A DNA stretch of 33,527 nt. Origin: Hellea sp. (lineage in GTDB: Bacteria; Pseudomonadota; Alphaproteobacteria; Caulobacterales; Maricaulaceae). The notes beneath the pieces are model-generated. The model was not told where the DNA came from. It did no database searches and saw only the letters and a list, made by a program, of their open reading frames with translations. The stretch spans positions 1-33,527 of the forward strand of contig JAHDDT010000012.1 in NCBI GenBank assembly GCA_020629195.1, read 5' to 3'. Of this stretch, positions 6,194 through 31,446 are shown in pieces; the stretch's first letter is position 1; the number at the start of each line of letters is the position of its first letter. Made by a program: the position numbers and the translations under genes.

Positions 6194-6610
6194 TTAATCT
6201 TTCTTGGCCATAAGGTAATGACCGTGCATGGCCGCAATAGGTTTATCATAATCGTCTTGCCACGCCTGCACACGGACATTAGCGACGCGGCTGCCTTGTT
6301 TAAAGATAACGGCGCGAGCATAGGTGTCTTTGGGATTACCCTTGCGCAAATAATCAACATTGATGCCGATAGGTTTAGGCAAGCCTTGCCCTTCCTCTTG
6401 CTCAATCATGAGCTGGACAATAGCGGCCATCTCCATAAGCCCGCTAATCGCGCCCCCATGTAAGGCGGGCAGCGTGGGGTTTCCAATATTGCTGTCCACA
6501 TAGGGCATGATCAACGTAAATTCCTCGCCGATAAAAAGAGGCTTAACGCCCAGACTTTGCGCGTAAGGAATACGGAGAAGCGCTTTGGCAATTTTGTCAT
6601 GCCCTACCAT
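6194..6610 (-). CDS. PaaI/hotdog-fold thioesterase family protein
   Basis: 138 aa; LPALHGGAISGLMEMAA hotdog motif, INVDYLRKG. Confidence 0.87.
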   Translation of the reverse strand: MVGHDKIAKALLRIPYAQSLGVKPLFIGEEFTLIMPYVDSNIGNPTLPALHGGAISGLMEMAAIVQLMIEQEEGQGLPKPIGINVDYLRKGNPKDTYARAVIFKQGSRVANVRVQAWQDDYDKPIAAMHGHYLMAKKD

Positions 6611-7065
6611 GACTTTACGCCCTTCTTACGAGCACCAGTGGCCATGAAGGTCGCTTGTGCTGTGGCCACAGGGTCTGTCTCGTCGCCGTCATGCGCAACA
6701 GCTCTGAGGAAAGCGACATGTTTGGTGGCTTTGTAACAATGGGCTTGCGCAATGATGGTTTCGCCTGGTTTGGCGGCGCGCATATAATCAATGGACAGGT
6801 TAAGTGTCGCGCAGGCACTCGGCTCCTCAAAACCTGCAATCGCCGCAAAGCCGCAAGTCTGGTCAAGCAATGTTGTGACAGCGCCGCCATGCATGACGCG
6901 GGTTTCAGGGTCCCCGATTAGCTCAGGGTTATAAGGGAGGCTCATGGTGGCTCGGCCTTTATCAACGGCGACAAATTTAATGCCGAGCTTTTTTCCATGT
7001 GGGGTATGTTCAACGAGGCTTGGCCCCATTTCCCATAATTGTTGTATAAATTCGCTATTCGGCAT
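6604..7065 (-). CDS. PaaI/hotdog-fold thioesterase family protein
   Basis: 153 aa; TRVMHGGAVTTLLDQTCGFAA, LNLSIDYMRAAKPGETI. Overlaps the next hotdog gene by 7 nt. Confidence 0.9.
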   Translation of the reverse strand: MPNSEFIQQLWEMGPSLVEHTPHGKKLGIKFVAVDKGRATMSLPYNPELIGDPETRVMHGGAVTTLLDQTCGFAAIAGFEEPSACATLNLSIDYMRAAKPGETIIAQAHCYKATKHVAFLRAVAHDGDETDPVATAQATFMATGARKKGVKSW

Positions 7066-8223: not shown

Positions 8224-9065
8224 AATATTTTAATCGGTAAAGGTTTGGCTATGATCAAAGCATCTTGTTCTTTCACGAGCGGAAGCTCTTGGCACGAGTC
8301 AGAGACTGCCGTTGACAAAATGCTAAAAATACTGGCGACGGACTTGGCTAAAGCGTCGCGCCGCAAGTCTCCAAGCAGTAAATGCGCTAAGAATGTTGCT
8401 GCGAGACTGTCCCCGCCGCCATGCGGAACAGATGAAAAGGTGTCATGATAAACAAAATACCGAGCAGGTCCGTCAATAAAGAGGGCGCCGATTTTATTGC
8501 CATGAGGGACTGACGTTACAAGACACGCCGCGGTGATATCTGAGGCGCTGCCTAAAATATCTTTTACTGAGTTTGCAGGGCGGCCTGATATATATGACAG
8601 TTCCCAAGCATTTGGGGTCGTAACTGTGGCTAGAGGCAGTAAGTGCGTTTTAATAGCTTCGGCGCGGCTTTCTGGAATATACAAGGCTCCATTGTCCCCC
8701 ATAACAGGGTCCACTAATATAATAGCCGCAGGATTTGCGGTTTTTATATCTGCGATAATATCCGCCGCGACGCCGATATGACTGTCATCTGCAAGATAAC
8801 CTGTCATCACCGCATGAAATTTTATGTTTTGGGCTTTTATAACGTCCCACATATCACGCAAATGCGCGGCTGAAAGGGCTTGTCCGCCTGGCGGCCCCCA
8901 TCCGGGGTGACGTCCCAACACGGTTGTTGGGATAAGAACGGTTTCTATGCCTAATCTGCGCAGACAAAAAGCGCTTGCGGTTGCGCCGACTTGGCTTGAG
9001 GCGACCAGCGAGGATATGACTAAAGCGGTTTTCACGTGAGTTATGTGACGATATACACGGCTCAA
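8220..9065 (-). CDS. pdxY: Pyridoxal kinase (PdxY-like, PfkB superfamily)
   Basis: 281 aa; SSLVASSQVGATASAFCLRRLGIETVLIPTTVLGRHPGWG, VDPVMGDNGALYI, TPNAWELSYISG, HGGGDSLAATFLAHLL. Stop overlaps the serine hydrolase start by 4 nt. Exact start uncertain; it may lie slightly downstream of 9065. Confidence 0.88.
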   Translation of the reverse strand: MSRVYRHITHVKTALVISSLVASSQVGATASAFCLRRLGIETVLIPTTVLGRHPGWGPPGGQALSAAHLRDMWDVIKAQNIKFHAVMTGYLADDSHIGVAADIIADIKTANPAAIILVDPVMGDNGALYIPESRAEAIKTHLLPLATVTTPNAWELSYISGRPANSVKDILGSASDITAACLVTSVPHGNKIGALFIDGPARYFVYHDTFSSVPHGGGDSLAATFLAHLLLGDLRRDALAKSVASIFSILSTAVSDSCQELPLVKEQDALIIAKPLPIKIL

Positions 9066-9083
9066 ATCAATCGGAGTTTCGCT

Positions 9084-9431
9084 ATGGCGTTAAAAATCTA
9101 CCACAATCCGCGATGTTCCAAGTCTCGCCAGACATTAAAGTTGATTGAAGAGGCGGGAGAGCTGGCTGAGATTATATTATATCTCAATGAGCCATTATCT
9201 TCGGCTGAAATAACAGAGCTTCTTGGGAAATTAGGCTTCGCAGACGCTAGAGCGCTGATGCGGACGGGTGAGGCCCTCTATAAAGAGCTTGGATTAAAGA
9301 CTGAGGCCGATCAAGCGGCCCTCATTGAGGCTATGAGTAAGCACCCCAAGCTCATTGAACGCCCTATCGTGGTTAAAGGAAATGCCGCAATATTGGGCCG
9401 TCCACCAGAAAATGTGCAAAAATTCCTCTAA
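9084..9431 (+). CDS. arsC: ArsC family (glutaredoxin-dependent) arsenate reductase
   Basis: ORF 9036-9431; ATG at 9084 gives MALKIYHNPRCSKSRQTLKLIEE, with conserved Arg residues in LMRTGE, IERPIVV and LGRPPE. Confidence 0.93.
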   Translation: MALKIYHNPRCSKSRQTLKLIEEAGELAEIILYLNEPLSSAEITELLGKLGFADARALMRTGEALYKELGLKTEADQAALIEAMSKHPKLIERPIVVKGNAAILGRPPENVQKFL

Positions 9432-9540: not shown

Positions 9541-10923
9541 ATGCGCTTAGCTGTCTGCACTTTATCAGCGGTATTACTCTCAGGCTGTTCTTGGCTTGGT
9601 GGTGTTGGCAATGTCTTTAATGGCGGCGGCCAAGGTCATCATGCTAAATCTTCGCACTATCAATATGGCGGTGGACATCACCGGCAGCACCAATATCAAG
9701 CTCAGCGTGACCCTTGCCAAGTTTTCTCGCCAAAAGCGCCGATTCCGCAAGGCTGTCACCCCTCTCAGGTCACGCTTGGTACTGCGGGCGGTTTTCCGCA
9801 ACAGCCTAGCTTCGGCGTGCCAGCGCAGGGCCGCGGCCAATATGCGAGCCAAGGTTATGGCTCTCACGCAGGTGTTGCGCATCAACAAGCTGCACATTAT
9901 GGTCCGCGTAAGAGTAAAAAGCGCAAGCCGCGTTTTCGTGGGGCGTTATCTCTAGGGGCTGAGAAAAGTATCTCTGGAGGATTACTGGATTACACAAAAC
10001 TTCCGACAATTGACCCTGTGGCTGGATATAACCCGCAGGATTACCGTGAAGCCAGAACGACAGGTAGCGAAGCTACAGGCAATATAACGACCGTTACATG
10101 GACTGCGAATCAGCAGGAGCTTTCCGGAACAGCGGTCTTAACGCCGCCAGGAACTGGCTTTTTAGGTTACGAACGCGCAAGGAACCCTGAAATTTCTTTC
10201 GATGATGTTTACAGCACGCCCACACGGCTCGCTGGCGGATTTGAATATATTGTGAATCCAAAAACCACTTTCTTTGCAAATGCCGGATATTCTCAAGCCG
10301 AAGGTAAGAGCGGCCAAGTTGCCTCTATTGATGCCACGCTTTACCGTTTGACGGAATCTCAAGATTATCAACCAGAGGATCCGGGTGTTGACGCCATGGG
10401 TAACCCAAACCCTCCGACAGGAAATTTTGTTACCGCGGGCGGCCTTCAACGTTCAACATCATTTATTCCAAATGAAGAAATTGCCCGGTTCAATTATGAT
10501 TTTACGGATATGAAGCGCCTCGATTTAGAAGCTGGTGGGCGTTATTACTTTAACCCTCTTGTCAAAAGCCAAGGTTATAAAACCTTGACGCCTTTTGTCG
10601 GGGCCGCCGTTGGCGCGTCACATTACAACGCTGTCTCTTACGATTCATCTCAGACACAGCGTTTTTACGAGCGCGCCTTTGAGAGTGGTGAAAATGATTA
10701 CTACGAAATTGTAGGCCCTAACACACGTGTTGATCTCTATGATAGTCAATGGGTTCCATCAGGTCAGTTAAACGCCGGTATGGAGTGGCAAGTTACGCCC
10801 AAATCAGCTCTCGCATTTGAAACAGGTGTCCGTGTTGAAGGCGCTCGCAAATATAGCAACGGTGAACGTGGCGATAAAAATATAGCAATTCCGATGACAA
10901 TCAGAGGAAGTTACAACTTTTAA
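9541..10923 (+). CDS. Putative outer-membrane lipoprotein with His/Gln-rich N-terminal segment and C-terminal beta-barrel-like domain (paralog 1)
   Basis: 460 aa; lipobox LSGC at Cys16; low-complexity GGGQGHHAKSSHYQYGGGHHRQHQYQ; alternating C-terminal strands ending IPMTIRGSYNF. GGAGGAACGAG RBS upstream. Confidence 0.85.
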   Translation: MRLAVCTLSAVLLSGCSWLGGVGNVFNGGGQGHHAKSSHYQYGGGHHRQHQYQAQRDPCQVFSPKAPIPQGCHPSQVTLGTAGGFPQQPSFGVPAQGRGQYASQGYGSHAGVAHQQAAHYGPRKSKKRKPRFRGALSLGAEKSISGGLLDYTKLPTIDPVAGYNPQDYREARTTGSEATGNITTVTWTANQQELSGTAVLTPPGTGFLGYERARNPEISFDDVYSTPTRLAGGFEYIVNPKTTFFANAGYSQAEGKSGQVASIDATLYRLTESQDYQPEDPGVDAMGNPNPPTGNFVTAGGLQRSTSFIPNEEIARFNYDFTDMKRLDLEAGGRYYFNPLVKSQGYKTLTPFVGAAVGASHYNAVSYDSSQTQRFYERAFESGENDYYEIVGPNTRVDLYDSQWVPSGQLNAGMEWQVTPKSALAFETGVRVEGARKYSNGERGDKNIAIPMTIRGSYNF

Positions 10924-10933
10924 CTAAATAACT

Positions 10934-10956
10934 GGAAACCTTAAGGTTTTGTTTCC
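10934..10956. repeat. Inverted repeat in the gap between paralogs 1 and 2 (GGAAACCTTAAGGTTTTGTTTCC)
   Basis: Contains the perfect palindrome AAACCTTAAGGTTT (10936-10949) and an alternative GGAAAC/GTTTCC pairing. At best a weak terminator or attenuator. Confidence 0.3.
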
Positions 10957-11034
10957 GATTTAGAAACGAAATTTTAAGCATACAGTGTTTTAAATTGGGA
11001 CAGTTAGTCTTTTAACGAGAAAAGGGAGGCCGAT

Positions 11035-12417
11035 ATGCGGCTTGCAGTTTGCGCTTTATCAGCGGTTTTATTGTCAGGGTGTTCCTGGCTGGGTATGGGC
11101 GGTCACGGATCTGCAGGCGGGGCCTATGGTGTAAACTGTGCTCCCACTGGAACGGGATATTACGCTGGCGGCGGAAGCGCGGGAGCATGTGGCGTTGGCG
11201 GCGGTTACGGCGTCGCAGGTAACGGTTATGGCGCGGGCGCAGGTTATGGTGCTGGTGCAGGCTACGGTGCAGGCGGTGCTGGATATGGCACAGCAGGCTA
11301 CGGAGCGGGCGCGGGTTACGGGGCTGCGGGTTACGGCTCAGGTGCTGGCGCTGGATATGGGGCCGCTGGTTACGGTACAGGCGCTGGATACGGTGCAGGC
11401 GGATATGGCGCGGGTGCTGGTTTTGGCGGCGTAGGCGCTGGCTTAGCGGCGAATGGCGTCGGCGCAGGTTACGGCGTTAACGGATATAATCTTCAAGGCT
11501 TCCAAGGTGCGTATGGCGCAAATGGCGGCGTAACAACACTTGGCGCGAATGCAGGATATGGATCTGCTGTTTACGGACAAAATGTTGTCGGCACGCAATA
11601 TGGCAATGGTCAATATGTCCAAGGTGCTGGCGTACAAACAATACAAGGCGCGCCTTATTATGTGCCGCAGCCTTATCCCGCTTATTACGGCGTTCCGCAG
11701 CTTCGCGGCGTTGGTGCGGCTCTTCCATTCGCTTTTGAAACAGGCATCGGGACAGAATTTGACATTGGCGGCGATGTCTTTGGCGGCAAAGAAGAAAGCC
11801 CTAACGGTGCTGATTTCGCCAGCTCAACAGCGCGTATTGGTGAACTTGATGCGATTAGCTATGACGATGCCTTTAAGAAAGGCATCAGCCTCGGCGGTAA
11901 TCTAGCCTATGACGTGTCACGCAATACAACACTGATTGGTGGCTTGGGTTATTCTAAGCGTAAAGGCCAGACACTTGAAAATGGTACATTTGAGCCGGGT
12001 TCCTATGACTCAGCAGGTAACTTTACATCAAGCGGCCCTGTTGAAACAGTAACAGCTGAATATTCAGACCTTGAAGAGTGGAAACTCGAAGGCGGCGTAC
12101 GTCAATATATGGGTTATAATCCAGTATTCCGTCCTTATGTCGGCGCCACAGGCGGCTTCACACATAATAATGGTGTCGATGTCACACAGACATCGTCTGG
12201 CGGAACTTTGACAGCTGCAGCCAATACGCAAGAATTTATCGATAGCGGATGGCGTCCAACAGCAGCAGGCGTAATAGGCGCAGAGATGGCTGTAGGGTCA
12301 CGTGCGGCGCTGGGTGTTGAGACAGGTATTCGCTGGCGCGATAATCTTGACACAAATACGAAGTCTGATGACCGTTGGTCTATCCCAGTCTCTCTACGTG
12401 GCCGGGTTGCCTTTTAA
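11035..12417 (+). CDS. Putative outer-membrane lipoprotein with Gly-Tyr-Ala repeat segment and C-terminal beta-barrel-like domain (paralog 2)
   Basis: 460 aa; N-terminus MRLAVCALSAVLLSGCSWLG nearly identical to paralog 1; GYGAGAG-type repeats; C-terminal domain aligns with paralogs 1 and 3 and ends IPVSLRGRVAF. Confidence 0.85.
   Translation: MRLAVCALSAVLLSGCSWLGMGGHGSAGGAYGVNCAPTGTGYYAGGGSAGACGVGGGYGVAGNGYGAGAGYGAGAGYGAGGAGYGTAGYGAGAGYGAAGYGSGAGAGYGAAGYGTGAGYGAGGYGAGAGFGGVGAGLAANGVGAGYGVNGYNLQGFQGAYGANGGVTTLGANAGYGSAVYGQNVVGTQYGNGQYVQGAGVQTIQGAPYYVPQPYPAYYGVPQLRGVGAALPFAFETGIGTEFDIGGDVFGGKEESPNGADFASSTARIGELDAISYDDAFKKGISLGGNLAYDVSRNTTLIGGLGYSKRKGQTLENGTFEPGSYDSAGNFTSSGPVETVTAEYSDLEEWKLEGGVRQYMGYNPVFRPYVGATGGFTHNNGVDVTQTSSGGTLTAAANTQEFIDSGWRPTAAGVIGAEMAVGSRAALGVETGIRWRDNLDTNTKSDDRWSIPVSLRGRVAF
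11199..11478 (+). repeat. Degenerate Gly-Tyr-Gly-Ala repeat tract inside paralog 2
   Basis: Encodes GYGVAGNGYGAGAGYGAGAGYGAGGAGYGTAGYGAGAGYGAAGYGSGAGAGYGAAGYGTGAGYGAGGYGAGAGFGGVGAG, with Tyr (or Phe) spaced by short Gly/Ala runs. Confidence 0.92.
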
Positions 12418-12442
12418 TTAACCCAAAAATAACTATGAATAC

Positions 12443-12472
12443 AAAAGCCCGGGTCAAACGCCCGGGCTTTTT
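12443..12472 (+). terminator. Strong rho-independent terminator after paralog 2
   Basis: AAAAGCCCGGG-TCAAACG-CCCGGGCTTTTT perfect stem, 25 nt after the stop codon. Confidence 0.93.
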
Positions 12473-12602
12473 GCATTTTCTTTAAGACTTTTCCCTATGG
12501 AGCCGTCCCATAAATATGAATTGGCCTTTTCTTTGCAACGTTCCGTTTCAAATCTGAAGTTCAAGGCAATTGTGCCAATTCGTAACAACAGGGAATGGAT
12601 TT

Positions 12603-13457
12603 ATGCGTATTTTATTAGCAGGTGCGGCAGCTATCGCACTTTCAGGGTGTTCTTTTTTAGGATTAGGTGGAAACAAAGACTATAAGAACTACGGTTACAA
12701 CGCACAGACTGGCAATTACGGCTATCAAGCTGATAAAGTTGCGCCTAAGGGCTGTCATAGCGGTCAATGTTTAAGCCGTTGGAATCTCGAAGGCGCCATA
12801 GGCCCATCATTCGCTGTTGGTGGCCATGCTGTGACTGGCGATAAAATGAATGCGGCGCCTCGCACTTCGGTTCGCAATCTTGATAATAGCGACATCTTCG
12901 ATACGGGTTATCGTGCCGAACTTGGCGGGTCTTACGCTCTAAGTCCAAATCGTAAGATCACGGGTAACGCATTTGTTGAAAATGCCAATGGCGGCGATGT
13001 TGTAGATTGGGGCACGCTTAATGGAGCGTCACTCCAAGGCGGTTTATCTGATTATCAGACATATGGTGCCGAGATCGGTCTTCGTCAGTATTTTGCGCCG
13101 CGTAAAGGACTGATTCTTAAGTCTGTTCGCCCATATGTAGAAGGTAAACTCGGTGCAGCGCATTTGGACGATATCACTTTAAACAACGTCACCACTACAG
13201 CTGGCACAACGGTGAATAATGTTGCTGATCTTCCTTTTTACGAAGGAGGTTGGGTTCCAACGGCAGCGGGTATGATTGGTTTTGAAACGCCTGTCGCTAA
13301 ATATACAACAATAGGTCTTGAGACAGGTCTGCGTTATACAGGTGTACCAAAAACGGATACATCAGCAATTCGTCCAGGAACAGCCTTGTCAGGTGCAAAT
13401 AATGGCGGCGCGCGTTATTCCGTGCCTGTCATGCTACGGGGCCGCTACCGCTTCTAG
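12603..13457 (+). CDS. Putative outer-membrane lipoprotein with short Asn/Tyr-rich spacer and C-terminal beta-barrel-like domain (paralog 3)
   Basis: ORF 12570-13457; ATG at 12603 gives MRILLAGAAAIALSGCSFLGLGGNKDYKNYGYNAQTGNYGY. Lipobox LSGC; C-terminal GGWVPTAAGMIGFE, GLETGLRY, VPVMLRGRYRF. Confidence 0.85.
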   Translation: MRILLAGAAAIALSGCSFLGLGGNKDYKNYGYNAQTGNYGYQADKVAPKGCHSGQCLSRWNLEGAIGPSFAVGGHAVTGDKMNAAPRTSVRNLDNSDIFDTGYRAELGGSYALSPNRKITGNAFVENANGGDVVDWGTLNGASLQGGLSDYQTYGAEIGLRQYFAPRKGLILKSVRPYVEGKLGAAHLDDITLNNVTTTAGTTVNNVADLPFYEGGWVPTAAGMIGFETPVAKYTTIGLETGLRYTGVPKTDTSAIRPGTALSGANNGGARYSVPVMLRGRYRF

Positions 13458-13473
13458 TTTGACGAAAAATATT

Positions 13474-13545
13474 TCACATAGGTTTTGGTCTATGTGACTG
13501 GGGACACAGCCTCGGCAGGAAACTGCCGAGGTTTTGTTGTTTTTA
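13474..13545 (+). terminator. Terminator region after paralog 3 (two hairpins)
   Basis: TCACATAG...CTATGTGA (13474-13497), then CCTCGGCAG-GAAA-CTGCCGAGG (13510-13531) followed by TTTTGTTGTTTTT. The second is a classic intrinsic terminator. Confidence 0.88.
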
Positions 13546-13549
13546 AACC

Positions 13550-15415
13550 TTACTCTTCGTCCGGTCTGGATTTTTCTGCGAATATCCAGCGGTCGATTTT
13601 ACGTTCCAATAGGTCGAGCGGCATGCCGCCATCCAGTAAGATTGCATCGTGGAATTTGCGGATATCAAATTTATCGCCTAGCTGCGTTTTAGCACGTTTG
13701 CGCAGTTCCAATATCTTAAGTTCCCCGATTTTATAAGCGAGCGCTTGGCCGGGCCAGCTAATATAGCGTTCGACTTCAGTTCTGATATTATGAGGGGCAA
13801 GGGCAGAGTTTTCAAAGAAGCAGGCCTCCGCTTGTTCGCGTGTCCAGCCTTTCCAATGCATACCCGTATCGACCACGAGGCGGCAAGCTCTCCACATTTC
13901 ATAAGTGAGCCGTCCGAAATTTTCATAAGGCGTTTTATAAAGCCCCATTTCTTTTGCGAGTTTTTCTGAATAAAGGCCCCAACCTTCACCAAAAGCATTT
14001 GGATAAAGACTTTGGCGGAAGGGCGGCACATCTTTGAGCTCTTGGCCCAAAGCAATTTGATGATGATGACCGGGAACGCCTTCATGGGCTGTGAGTGCAG
14101 GGAGGTTATAAAGTGGGCGTTGCTTCAAATCATACGTATTGACGACATAATTACCTGCGCGGTGTTGCTCGGGATTACCGCCCCAATAGCGTCCGGTTGT
14201 GTAATTGGGGGCAATCTCCTTGGGAACGGGGATAACACCATAAGAGAGGCGCGGCAGAGTCTCAAAAAACTCCGGCATTTTTCCGTCGATCTGTTTAGCC
14301 ATCCACGCAGCCTCTTTTAAAAGCTGTTCCTCCGAGGTGGCATAGAATTGAGGGTCTGTGCGTAAAAAATCTAAAAACTCAGCAAAGCTACCTTTGAATT
14401 CTAAGTCTTCAATGATGGTGTCCATTTCGCTGCGGATTCGGGCTACCTCTTTCAGACCGATTTCATGAACTTCATCAGGGCTCATATCGAGCGTTGTAAA
14501 GTAGCGTACAAGTGCCCGATAATATTCACGCCCTTCTTCTGTTGTTCCTATACCCACAACTGATCGCGCATGTGGTAAATATTCTTCTTCTAGAAATTTT
14601 GCGAGATCACGATAGGCGGGCATAACCGCATTCATAATGGCGGCTTCACCTAATGATGTCAGGCGGGCTTGTTCATCTTTTGAGATTGCGTCCGGATAGA
14701 TTGTGAAGGGCTTGAAAAAACTATGATCTTTAGCGCTGCCTTCTCCTAGATTTTCAACCATCTCAATAATGCCCGGCATGATTTCCGCAGAGGCAGTCAT
14801 ATTGGTTTGGATGCCGCGTCTGAGGTTAGCTTTATGCTGGCCAAAATAGCGCGGAATTTCTGTCAACCGCGCTGCATAGGCTTCATAATCGTCGATTTTA
14901 GCGAATGTCGTTTGCCGCGAAATATAACTCATTTCATTGAAAAACCCACTATCATTTGTAAATGGGATTCGGGCTTGATCAAATGGTATCATGCGCTGAC
15001 GCTGCTCAAGAACAAAACCAAGCAGCTGATAATTTAGACGTTTTTCTTGAGACATTGGCCGCGCCGACAAGGCCGCGTGGCGCTTGATAAAGTCTGTCGT
15101 AATGCGTTTATAATTTTCAGCAGCCTCGGGACTGACATCGGGCAATTTGCGTAAGGCTTCACGGTCACCCTCTTGTCCAGCAGATATCGGGTTGCCAGAA
15201 ATTTCCATTTGCTCAAAGTCAGCTATTAAAGTCTCTAAGCTGTCATCAATGCGGCATTCTCTCAGGCCATCTACAATAATGACAGTCCCGGCTTTGCAAA
15301 ATTCAGCAGGCTGAATTATGGGGGGGTTAGAGGAATTTCCATTGCTTTGGGCTATGGCTGCAAACGGTAAAGCTGTCGAAAGAGCCAAGAGGGCGAGGCG
15401 GGAGATCACTGTCAT
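13550..15415 (-). CDS. DUF885 family protein (putative metallopeptidase-like)
   Basis: ORF 13550-15436; likely start MTVISRLALLALSTALPFAAIAQ (signal peptide). LPALTAHEGVPGHHHQIAL and EGWGLYSEKLAKEMG are typical of DUF885. Confidence 0.93.
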   Translation of the reverse strand: MTVISRLALLALSTALPFAAIAQSNGNSSNPPIIQPAEFCKAGTVIIVDGLRECRIDDSLETLIADFEQMEISGNPISAGQEGDREALRKLPDVSPEAAENYKRITTDFIKRHAALSARPMSQEKRLNYQLLGFVLEQRQRMIPFDQARIPFTNDSGFFNEMSYISRQTTFAKIDDYEAYAARLTEIPRYFGQHKANLRRGIQTNMTASAEIMPGIIEMVENLGEGSAKDHSFFKPFTIYPDAISKDEQARLTSLGEAAIMNAVMPAYRDLAKFLEEEYLPHARSVVGIGTTEEGREYYRALVRYFTTLDMSPDEVHEIGLKEVARIRSEMDTIIEDLEFKGSFAEFLDFLRTDPQFYATSEEQLLKEAAWMAKQIDGKMPEFFETLPRLSYGVIPVPKEIAPNYTTGRYWGGNPEQHRAGNYVVNTYDLKQRPLYNLPALTAHEGVPGHHHQIALGQELKDVPPFRQSLYPNAFGEGWGLYSEKLAKEMGLYKTPYENFGRLTYEMWRACRLVVDTGMHWKGWTREQAEACFFENSALAPHNIRTEVERYISWPGQALAYKIGELKILELRKRAKTQLGDKFDIRKFHDAILLDGGMPLDLLERKIDRWIFAEKSRPDEE

Positions 15416-15559
15416 TTTTTCACCTAAAATACGCAATACTGTCTGCTTTAGTCTTCTGAGGCTAGGACAACAAGCTAAATTCGTAATAGCTATCGTGGGT
15501 TACGAAGTGTTCACATAAAACGCAACGCTCTCTTAGGACTTATACCCTAGGGCGGAGTT

Positions 15560-29569: not shown

Positions 29570-30475
29570 TCAAAACCTCAATTCATCCCCAGCGGTCTTT
29601 ACCTTCTGAATCCGCCTCTGCTCCTGCCGAAAATTTTCATAGCGTTCCGTAATATTTGGATGCGTTTTTGACGTTTTTTGAAACTCCGCATGGGGGTGAG
29701 CGGCGTCTTTCCAATAGCTTATAGCGCGGTCAATATCATATCCCGCGCGGGACATCATCACGAGGGCCATCCGGTCAGCTTTCAGCTCCAATGCCTTTTC
29801 TTTTCTCTGATGACCTTTAATCGCGTGGGCCATTTCATGGGCGATTATGAGGGCGAGGTTTACATCATCTGGAACCGTTTTCATCAATTCTGAGGTGATA
29901 ATAATTTGCTCACCGTCTGTGTGGCCATTGGCTTTATCATTGAAGAAAACATTGACGGGGTAATCGCATATCGTTTCAGGTTTCACCGTTAGGGTAAGCC
30001 GTTTTTCACCGCGCCGAATGTCAAGCTTAGCGCTTTTGCGCCGATAGGCATTTTGCGTGGCGACTTTAAAAAAGCGCTGCACCGTAAACCCGCCTGGCAT
30101 ATATGCGCCGTTAATGCCCGTGATTACATCTCCCGTTCTAAGCCCACTTTCATCTGCGGGAGACCCTTTACGGACCGTCCGCACGGAGAGACGTTCTGTG
30201 GCGCCCATCAAGACTTCGGCAAAGGGCTGTAAATTAGGTTGATAATCCGAGAGCGTATGGACCGTCATGCCAATATCGCGAGTGGTTTGAGGACAGAGCT
30301 CCATATTAGCTTTGAGGAGCGGCGCGGCAACTTTTTGAAGGCGTGTATTATAGCTTTGATGCTCTTTTAATATGGCTGCGAAAGCGAGCTCATTTTTTGT
30401 GCGGGGGATATAATCTGCGGCCATTACCGGGGCTGTTAAAGCCAGAACAGCCAAACTTAAAACGGCGCGTTTCAT
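29570..30475 (-). CDS. M48 family metalloprotease with PDZ domain
   Basis: 301 aa; signal peptide; PDZ-like VRKGSPADESGLRTGDVITGING; zinc motif IIAHEMAHAIKGHQ; downstream ELKAD. Confidence 0.92.
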   Translation of the reverse strand: MKRAVLSLAVLALTAPVMAADYIPRTKNELAFAAILKEHQSYNTRLQKVAAPLLKANMELCPQTTRDIGMTVHTLSDYQPNLQPFAEVLMGATERLSVRTVRKGSPADESGLRTGDVITGINGAYMPGGFTVQRFFKVATQNAYRRKSAKLDIRRGEKRLTLTVKPETICDYPVNVFFNDKANGHTDGEQIIITSELMKTVPDDVNLALIIAHEMAHAIKGHQRKEKALELKADRMALVMMSRAGYDIDRAISYWKDAAHPHAEFQKTSKTHPNITERYENFRQEQRRIQKVKTAGDELRF

Positions 30476-31446
30476 GACTTATTATCATCTGTTTTGAAAT
30501 TCGGGATGAGGGGCTGCCCCGCCGCTTGTTTTGCCCTAATCTCGGCCCGTGCGGCGGCAATAGAGAGGTAGCGGTTTGGATAGGTTGGGTGGGTTTTGGC
30601 ACGCGCAACATGTTTTGGATTTGTGACCGCTAATCGCCGCCAGAAGTCTTCAACGCCTTCAGGGCTATATCCAGCCCGTACCATGTAATACAGTCCGACA
30701 TAATCCGACTCTGACTCAAAAGGCCGTGTATAACGTGTGCCGCCGAGAGAAAGAATGATATTGCTGACGATTTTGCGGATATGGCCCATCGTATTATGAC
30801 CGAGCTCGTGACCGATAATCAGAGCGAGCTCATCATCATTTTTAACGAAATTCATCATGCCCGTTGTCATGGTGATGTTTCGCCCATCCGCATAAGCATT
30901 AATGGTCGAAGTCTGCGCGAGCCGCACATTATAACCACATACGGTGTCTGATGTGACGGTGATGGGCATTTTGTTATTGCTGCGCTGGATCTGCACAGTC
31001 TCCCCCGCATTAAGCTGCGCCTGAATCGCTTTACTATTTGGCGTAGTGACTTTGCCTTTGCTGGTTAGAAACTGATCCCCTGCTTTCAATCCCGCCGCCT
31101 CTGCCGCTGAGCCTTTTACAACTAACCTTATAGACGGCTCTTCACCTGCGCCGAGCTCACGCTTAGCCGCAGGACGCAAGGCTTTGGGGTAGTTTTTCAG
31201 GCTGTGCATGATCACACCAATATCTTGCCGCGTTTTTGGGCAGAGTTCTGTATTCGCTTTTAGAACGGGTAAAGCGACTTGCATCAGGCGCTGTTGCTGT
31301 CGCTCCAAATCCTCAAAGGCTAAAGCTTCTTGGCGAGTTTGTTCACCAGAAATTTGTGGCGCTGTAATATCAGGGAGCCTTGTGGAGACACTGGCGCATC
31401 CCCCCCAAACGCCCCCTAAAATTAAGGCTGATAAGAAGATTCTCAT
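30472..31446 (-). CDS. M48 family metalloprotease with PDZ domain, lipoprotein
   Basis: 324 aa; lipobox-like GGVWGGC; VVKGSAAEAAGLKAGDQFLTSKGK; zinc motif IIGHELGHNTMGH; ESESD. Overlaps the downstream paralog by 4 nt. Confidence 0.92.
   Translation of the reverse strand: MRIFLSALILGGVWGGCASVSTRLPDITAPQISGEQTRQEALAFEDLERQQQRLMQVALPVLKANTELCPKTRQDIGVIMHSLKNYPKALRPAAKRELGAGEEPSIRLVVKGSAAEAAGLKAGDQFLTSKGKVTTPNSKAIQAQLNAGETVQIQRSNNKMPITVTSDTVCGYNVRLAQTSTINAYADGRNITMTTGMMNFVKNDDELALIIGHELGHNTMGHIRKIVSNIILSLGGTRYTRPFESESDYVGLYYMVRAGYSPEGVEDFWRRLAVTNPKHVARAKTHPTYPNRYLSIAAARAEIRAKQAAGQPLIPNFKTDDNKS

Follow-up and report, generated by a model that had tools for sequence, protein, structure and literature searches.

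What kind of protein carries both a lipoprotein signal and an outer membrane (OM) barrel in a single chain, and why would a bacterium keep three of them side by side? This question is raised by three tandem genes, here called A, B and C, in a stretch of 33,527 nucleotides from Hellea sp., a marine relative of the stalked bacteria (Alphaproteobacteria, Caulobacterales, Maricaulaceae; contig JAHDDT010000012.1 of assembly GCA_020629195.1), which at its full length is referred to as the window. The assembly amounts to 2.18 Mb at 76.5% completeness, and the nearest named relative is Hellea balneolensis DSM 19091 (C 96% identical), followed by a Robiginitomaculum metagenome-assembled genome. We consider it likely that A, B and C are lipid-anchored OM barrels with periplasmic, disulfide-clipped tails, derived from a plain barrel and having an envelope-structural, OmpA-like role. 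The genes and their predicted parts are:

9541..10923, plus strand: gene A, 460 amino acids; lipoprotein signal, 115-residue tail (residues 16-130) with Cys59/Cys72, and eight-stranded barrel (about residues 131-460)
9910..10920, plus strand: barrel domain of A, with a basic KSKKRKPRFRG stretch directly ahead of strand 1
11035..12417, plus strand: gene B, 460 amino acids; lipoprotein signal, Gly/Ala/Tyr-rich tail of about 213 residues with Cys35/Cys52 and the conserved motif VQTxQGAPxYVPQPYPAYYG, and barrel (about residues 229-460, by profile homology)
12603..13457, plus strand: gene C, 284 amino acids; lipoprotein signal, tail of about 42 residues with Cys51/Cys56, and eight-stranded barrel (residues 60-284)

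The tandem arrangement had been reported in an initial annotation made from the DNA letters, and its coordinates and motifs were confirmed apart from the start of C. While the mechanical open reading frame call begins C at TTG 12570 and thereby adds 11 residues, we place the start at ATG 12603 (product MRILLAGAAAIALSGCS), because the orthologs align from that methionine and lack the added residues.

In a plain protein search, A, B and C resemble one another only weakly. Profiles of the orthologs (32 of A, 37 of B, 39 of C) gave profile-profile E values of 9e-39 (A/B), 1.5e-36 (A/C) and 3e-41 (B/C) over the whole C-terminal barrel, and by this measure the three are tandem paralogs whose shared domain extends well past the short motifs by which it was originally noticed. 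The impression that they belong to no named family was borne out for Pfam, where none of the three has a match, and for NCBIfam, which has no family for them; a profile search of PDB sequences gave matches at chance level only. A weak, sub-threshold NCBIfam match of the first 71 residues of C to a lipoprotein model was judged to be signal-peptide resemblance and set aside. OMP_b-brl (PF13505) does not match A, B or C either, while among their homologs, described below, the non-lipidated L077 scores above the cut-off of that family and L063 and L083 below it.

The barrel was modeled with AlphaFold2 for A and C, using alignments of 8 rows drawn only from the window and two related loci, which were found by scanning genome contigs of relatives. 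In the C model, residues 1-56 have a predicted local distance difference test score (pLDDT) below 50 and are followed by eight long strands (60-78, 102-114, 117-128, 151-163, 176-188, 216-232, 235-246 and 271-283), with extra short strands in the loops. The A model has eight matching strands, from 132 to 459, and most of its residues 1-127 are likewise below 50. Both models are thus closed eight-stranded barrels, of the size usual for OmpA, behind a disordered tail, B being assigned to the same fold by profile homology only. The best PDB matches found with Foldseek were OmpA, NspA, OmpW, OprG and Ail for C, and OmpA and OmpW for A, i.e. transmembrane barrels, so that the proposal of a chain with both a lipobox and a C-terminal barrel is upheld, the lipidation itself being predicted. 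The strands of C have an apolar face, with a mean hydropathy of 0.92, and opposite it a slightly more conserved one (0.76 vs 0.70) on which 13 charged or amide residues are conserved, which fits a transmembrane barrel with a polar interior. Furthermore, the terminal residue is Phe in all 108 aligned orthologs (32 A, 37 B, 39 C), giving the C-terminal aromatic strand that serves as a signal to the barrel assembly machinery (BAM), and at position -3 C has Tyr, A mostly Tyr or Phe, and B an aliphatic residue. Pfam shows no C-terminal peptidoglycan-binding OmpA domain, and the modeled chains of A and C stop at the last strand.

The same order of lipobox, flexible segment and eight-stranded barrel is found in TbpB and fHbp (PMC5449769), and A, B and C might accordingly be soluble barrels on flexible anchors, displayed at the surface by Slam. 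Against this stand the transmembrane barrels among the best structural matches, the terminal Phe in 108 out of 108 sequences, and the relatives outside the branch, which are plain secreted barrels, one of them above the PF13505 cut-off. The Slam family (PF04575) was not found in seven of nine genomes and was borderline in the other two, and it has no match among the annotated neighbors in the window. On the grounds of fold, homology and the absence of Slam from most genomes, a Slam-dependent surface lipoprotein was rejected as highly improbable.

At the other end of the chain, the lipobox LSGC-S is nearly invariant among the orthologs, and A, B and C are predicted to be lipidated at its cysteine, with cleavage after LSG. 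The signal peptides (9541-9588, 11035-11082 and 12603-12650 in the window) look unusually conserved for lipoproteins, most so in B, where pairwise identity is 0.78 over residues 1-15 as compared to 0.49 for the barrel. Recent gene conversion between the signal peptides of A and B, which are nearly identical as protein, was considered and dropped, as the DNA differs at synonymous positions.

Between signal and barrel lies a tail of 89-136 residues in A, 180-261 in B and 30-111 in C. Acidic residues are scarce in it (0.6-2.8%) and Gly is abundant, along with Gln, Ala, Ser, Asn or Tyr. The barrel was expected to be more conserved than the tail, and it is, with pairwise identities of 0.39-0.49 against 0.24-0.29. 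The N-terminal segments had also been described as swapped and unrelated. The former does not hold, as the tails are ortholog-specific: the C-x12-C pair is a constant feature of A, the B tail is rich in Gly, Ala and Tyr, and that of C is short. The latter holds in part, since the sequence types do differ by paralog, but an even number of cysteines is common to all three. Certain stretches are conserved within the tails, namely CQVxSPxxPIPQGC in A and VQTVQGAPxYVPQPYPAYYG in B. The drift of the tail, together with the barrels of the non-lipidated relatives, which need no lipid, could indicate that the lipid serves mainly for delivery, with the lipidated tail pinning the unfolded barrel at the OM until BAM folds it and having no later role. 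The invariant cysteine pairs and the conserved motifs suggest instead that the tail has a role of its own, and we regard mere delivery as quite improbable.

Cysteines other than the lipid cysteine were counted in 115 lipidated proteins. Exactly two are present in 32 out of 32 A, always 13 apart, and in 39 out of 39 C, where many pairs are adjacent; B has two in 24 cases, four in 12 and six in one, and seven further lipidated copies have none. The totals are thus zero in 7, two in 95, four in 12 and six in 1, and an odd count never occurs. Almost all of these cysteines are in the tail, the barrels being cysteine-free except for two in one B, and the second B pair, where present, mostly sits just ahead of the barrel, i.e. 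at the position of the C pair. DsbB was found in all seven genomes tested. Because the counts are even throughout, they suggest disulfides within the tail as the simplest reading. Alternatively, disulfides between chains could build a network in the OM, out of A, B and C together or out of copies of a single one, as would suit three genes that are retained and lost together and that all have tail cysteines. Even counts per chain in 115 out of 115 proteins fit intramolecular pairs better, however, and so do the fixed spacing in A and the adjacent pairs in C; such a network is therefore considered unlikely. Rather unlikely, too, is a three-part lipid-anchored OM scaffold in which A, B and C act as a unit via their cysteine-paired tails, whether disulfide-linked or surface-exposed. 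If true, it would not have been described before.

The side of the membrane on which the tail resides can be approached from the barrel. An even number of strands and a C-terminal strand ending in Phe place both ends of a barrel in the periplasm. With the lipid in the inner leaflet of the OM, the tail would therefore be a periplasmic loop, unless it is exported separately. This default runs counter to the surface tether envisaged in the initial annotation, and no result of this analysis hints at adhesion, matrix or a holdfast. The lipid and tail might nevertheless be exposed at the surface, as in the lipidated autotransporters NalP and SphB1 or in the topology proposed for RcsF, with the tail acting as tether or adhesin. 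Lipidated autotransporters demonstrate that a lipobox and a barrel can coexist in one chain (PMC8151025), and a surface coat could well be made of low-complexity Gly/Tyr tails. On the other hand, Pfam shows no autotransporter family match and the strands number eight, not twelve, so that a classical (type Va) autotransporter was rejected, and the OmpA barrel offers no open channel through which a linker could pass (PMC7553776). Taken together, surface exposure appears improbable.

The preferred reading, a lipid-anchored barrel with a periplasmic tail, also includes an origin from a plain barrel. Profile searches covering 248 genomes of the order, 290 of the class and 299 of the phylum gave matches outside the family, nearly all of them single-copy, both within Caulobacterales and elsewhere in the Alphaproteobacteria, and in one further class. 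Those that were read have ordinary signal peptides and neither lipobox nor tail. One genome of another family (G389) has two non-lipidated relatives (L085 and L091), and duplication is therefore not confined to the lipidated branch. In a tree of 77 rows all lipidated rows fall on one side of a branch (100/97), amounting to one change of state, and A forms one clade, B another, and C together with its extra copies a third. In genus g7, a lipidated form that occurs in single copy between DUF885 and BlaC, and whose tail is short and lacks cysteines, branches outside A, B and C, and fits a series from plain barrel via lipidated single copy to triplet. Apparently, a plain OMP_b-brl barrel became a lipoprotein in one branch, where it was also triplicated and acquired longer tails, the presumed direction being from ordinary signal peptide to lipoprotein.

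Additional lipidated copies were also observed. An extra C-like copy without tail cysteines adjoins C in L024, L043, L044, L050 and L059, with a much longer tail in L043 and L044. Another divergent lipidated barrel, on a long branch and with a second copy adjacent to it, is found off the main locus in one g9 genome (L064:6335-7102).

The surroundings of the three genes in the window contain the following features, of which the two genes are outside the A/B/C system:

9036..9431, plus strand: ArsC-family gene, conserved neighbor upstream
13550..15436, minus strand: DUF885 gene, conserved convergent neighbor downstream
12443..12471, plus strand: terminator-like hairpin in the B-C gap
13508..13533, plus strand: terminator-like hairpin 3' of C

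Nearly all of the loci examined share the gene order ArsC-A-B-C-DUF885, neighbors included. Since a terminator-like hairpin occurs in the B-C gap of the window, and a stem in the B-C gap of 15 out of 36 relatives vs 1 out of 31 A-B gaps, A-B and C may be separate transcripts. Among 99 genomes of the family, representing 19 genera, 46-47 genomes from eight genera had a match. Two 1.8-Mb genomes of the same genus (L106 and L107; 97% and 92% complete) had none; in these, DUF885 adjoins ArsC or BlaC directly, and no remnant of A, B or C was detected. Because of this clean absence, the set is regarded as dispensable and lost as a unit. Two adjacent 4HBT thioesterase genes (6194-7065 in the window) are conserved near the locus in several relatives, and the minus strand at 29570-31446 bears an adjacent pair of M48 peptidase genes, of which one includes a PDZ domain.

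In the mechanism that we propose, Sec would export A, B and C, which would be cleaved and lipidated at the lipobox and transferred to the OM. The C-terminal 220-330 residues would then adopt the OmpA/OMP_b-brl type of fold, a transmembrane barrel with eight strands and long extracellular loops, leaving the tail of 30-260 Gly/Tyr/Gln-rich and almost acid-free residues as a periplasmic loop that is tethered at either end and that one to three disulfides clip. The lipobox would have been gained by a plain signal-peptide barrel in the branch around Hellea and Robiginitomaculum, followed by triplication in place, with each copy retaining a tail of its own. The products would be non-essential, co-inherited, monomeric envelope-structural barrels, in which the lipid and clipped tail replace a peptidoglycan-binding domain.

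Several points weigh against this reading. The AlphaFold2 models, available for A and C, have mean pLDDT values of 68 (C) and 55 (A) with their 8-row alignments, and their topology is therefore more reliable than their detail. The sequences are kin, so that the 115 even cysteine counts represent a handful of changes rather than 115 independent events. The split between ordinary and lipoprotein signal peptides was judged by eye from sequence, and the tree has long branches for L087, L089, L059_Cx and L064. As its root was placed on the rows with ordinary signal peptides, the direction toward lipoprotein draws on the wider spread of the ordinary signal-peptide forms, not on the tree. Finally, the proposed structural role builds solely on the fold and on the set being dispensable.

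The initial annotation had missed the even cysteine counts, the conservation of the locus and the relatives without a lipobox outside the branch. If the lipid is real, an ordinary small OM barrel appears to have become a lipoprotein once and then to have been retained, triplicated and elaborated. Natural relatives that are non-lipidated, lipidated in single copy, triplicated or devoid of the set would make it possible to ask what a lipid adds to a membrane-spanning barrel, and the even cysteine counts offer a cheap and direct test of whether disordered tails are clipped by disulfides.

A literature search for Robiginitomaculum combined with outer membrane protein and lipoprotein retrieved no paper. 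Among known systems, the closest in fold are OMP_b-brl (PF13505, whose cut-off a non-lipidated homolog passes), the OmpA transmembrane domain, OmpW, NspA and Ail, with the same eight strands, long loops and terminal Phe strand, but these have ordinary signal peptides, whereas A, B and C have a lipobox, a cysteine-paired tail of 30-260 residues and no Pfam match. Escherichia coli OmpA, the best structural match of the barrel and similar in the envelope-structural role proposed here, carries no lipid and has a peptidoglycan-binding domain at its C-terminus, while A, B and C end with the barrel. NalP and SphB1 consist of a twelve-stranded translocator and a folded passenger. Like A, B and C, they unite a lipobox and a C-terminal barrel within a single chain (PMC8151025). 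A, B and C differ in having eight strands, a disordered tail and no autotransporter family match. OprM, CusC and CmeC assemble as trimers into composite channels that include a periplasmic tunnel. In these, too, an N-terminal lipidated cysteine occurs on a protein that contributes to a transmembrane barrel (PMC4486845). A, B and C, in contrast, would form one barrel per chain and lack a tunnel domain. The Slam-dependent lipoproteins TbpB, fHbp and HpuA combine lipobox, flexible segment and eight-stranded barrel (PMC5449769), but as soluble, surface-displayed barrels, whereas fold matches and homology point to a transmembrane one here. RcsF has a lipid, a disordered linker and an association with the OmpA barrel (PMC7553776), but is a protein separate from its barrel partner and has a globular signaling domain. 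Lipid and barrel in one chain are consequently not new in themselves; the novelty lies in joining a predicted lipid to an eight-stranded barrel through a disordered tail with paired cysteines, in a set that was triplicated and is inherited together.

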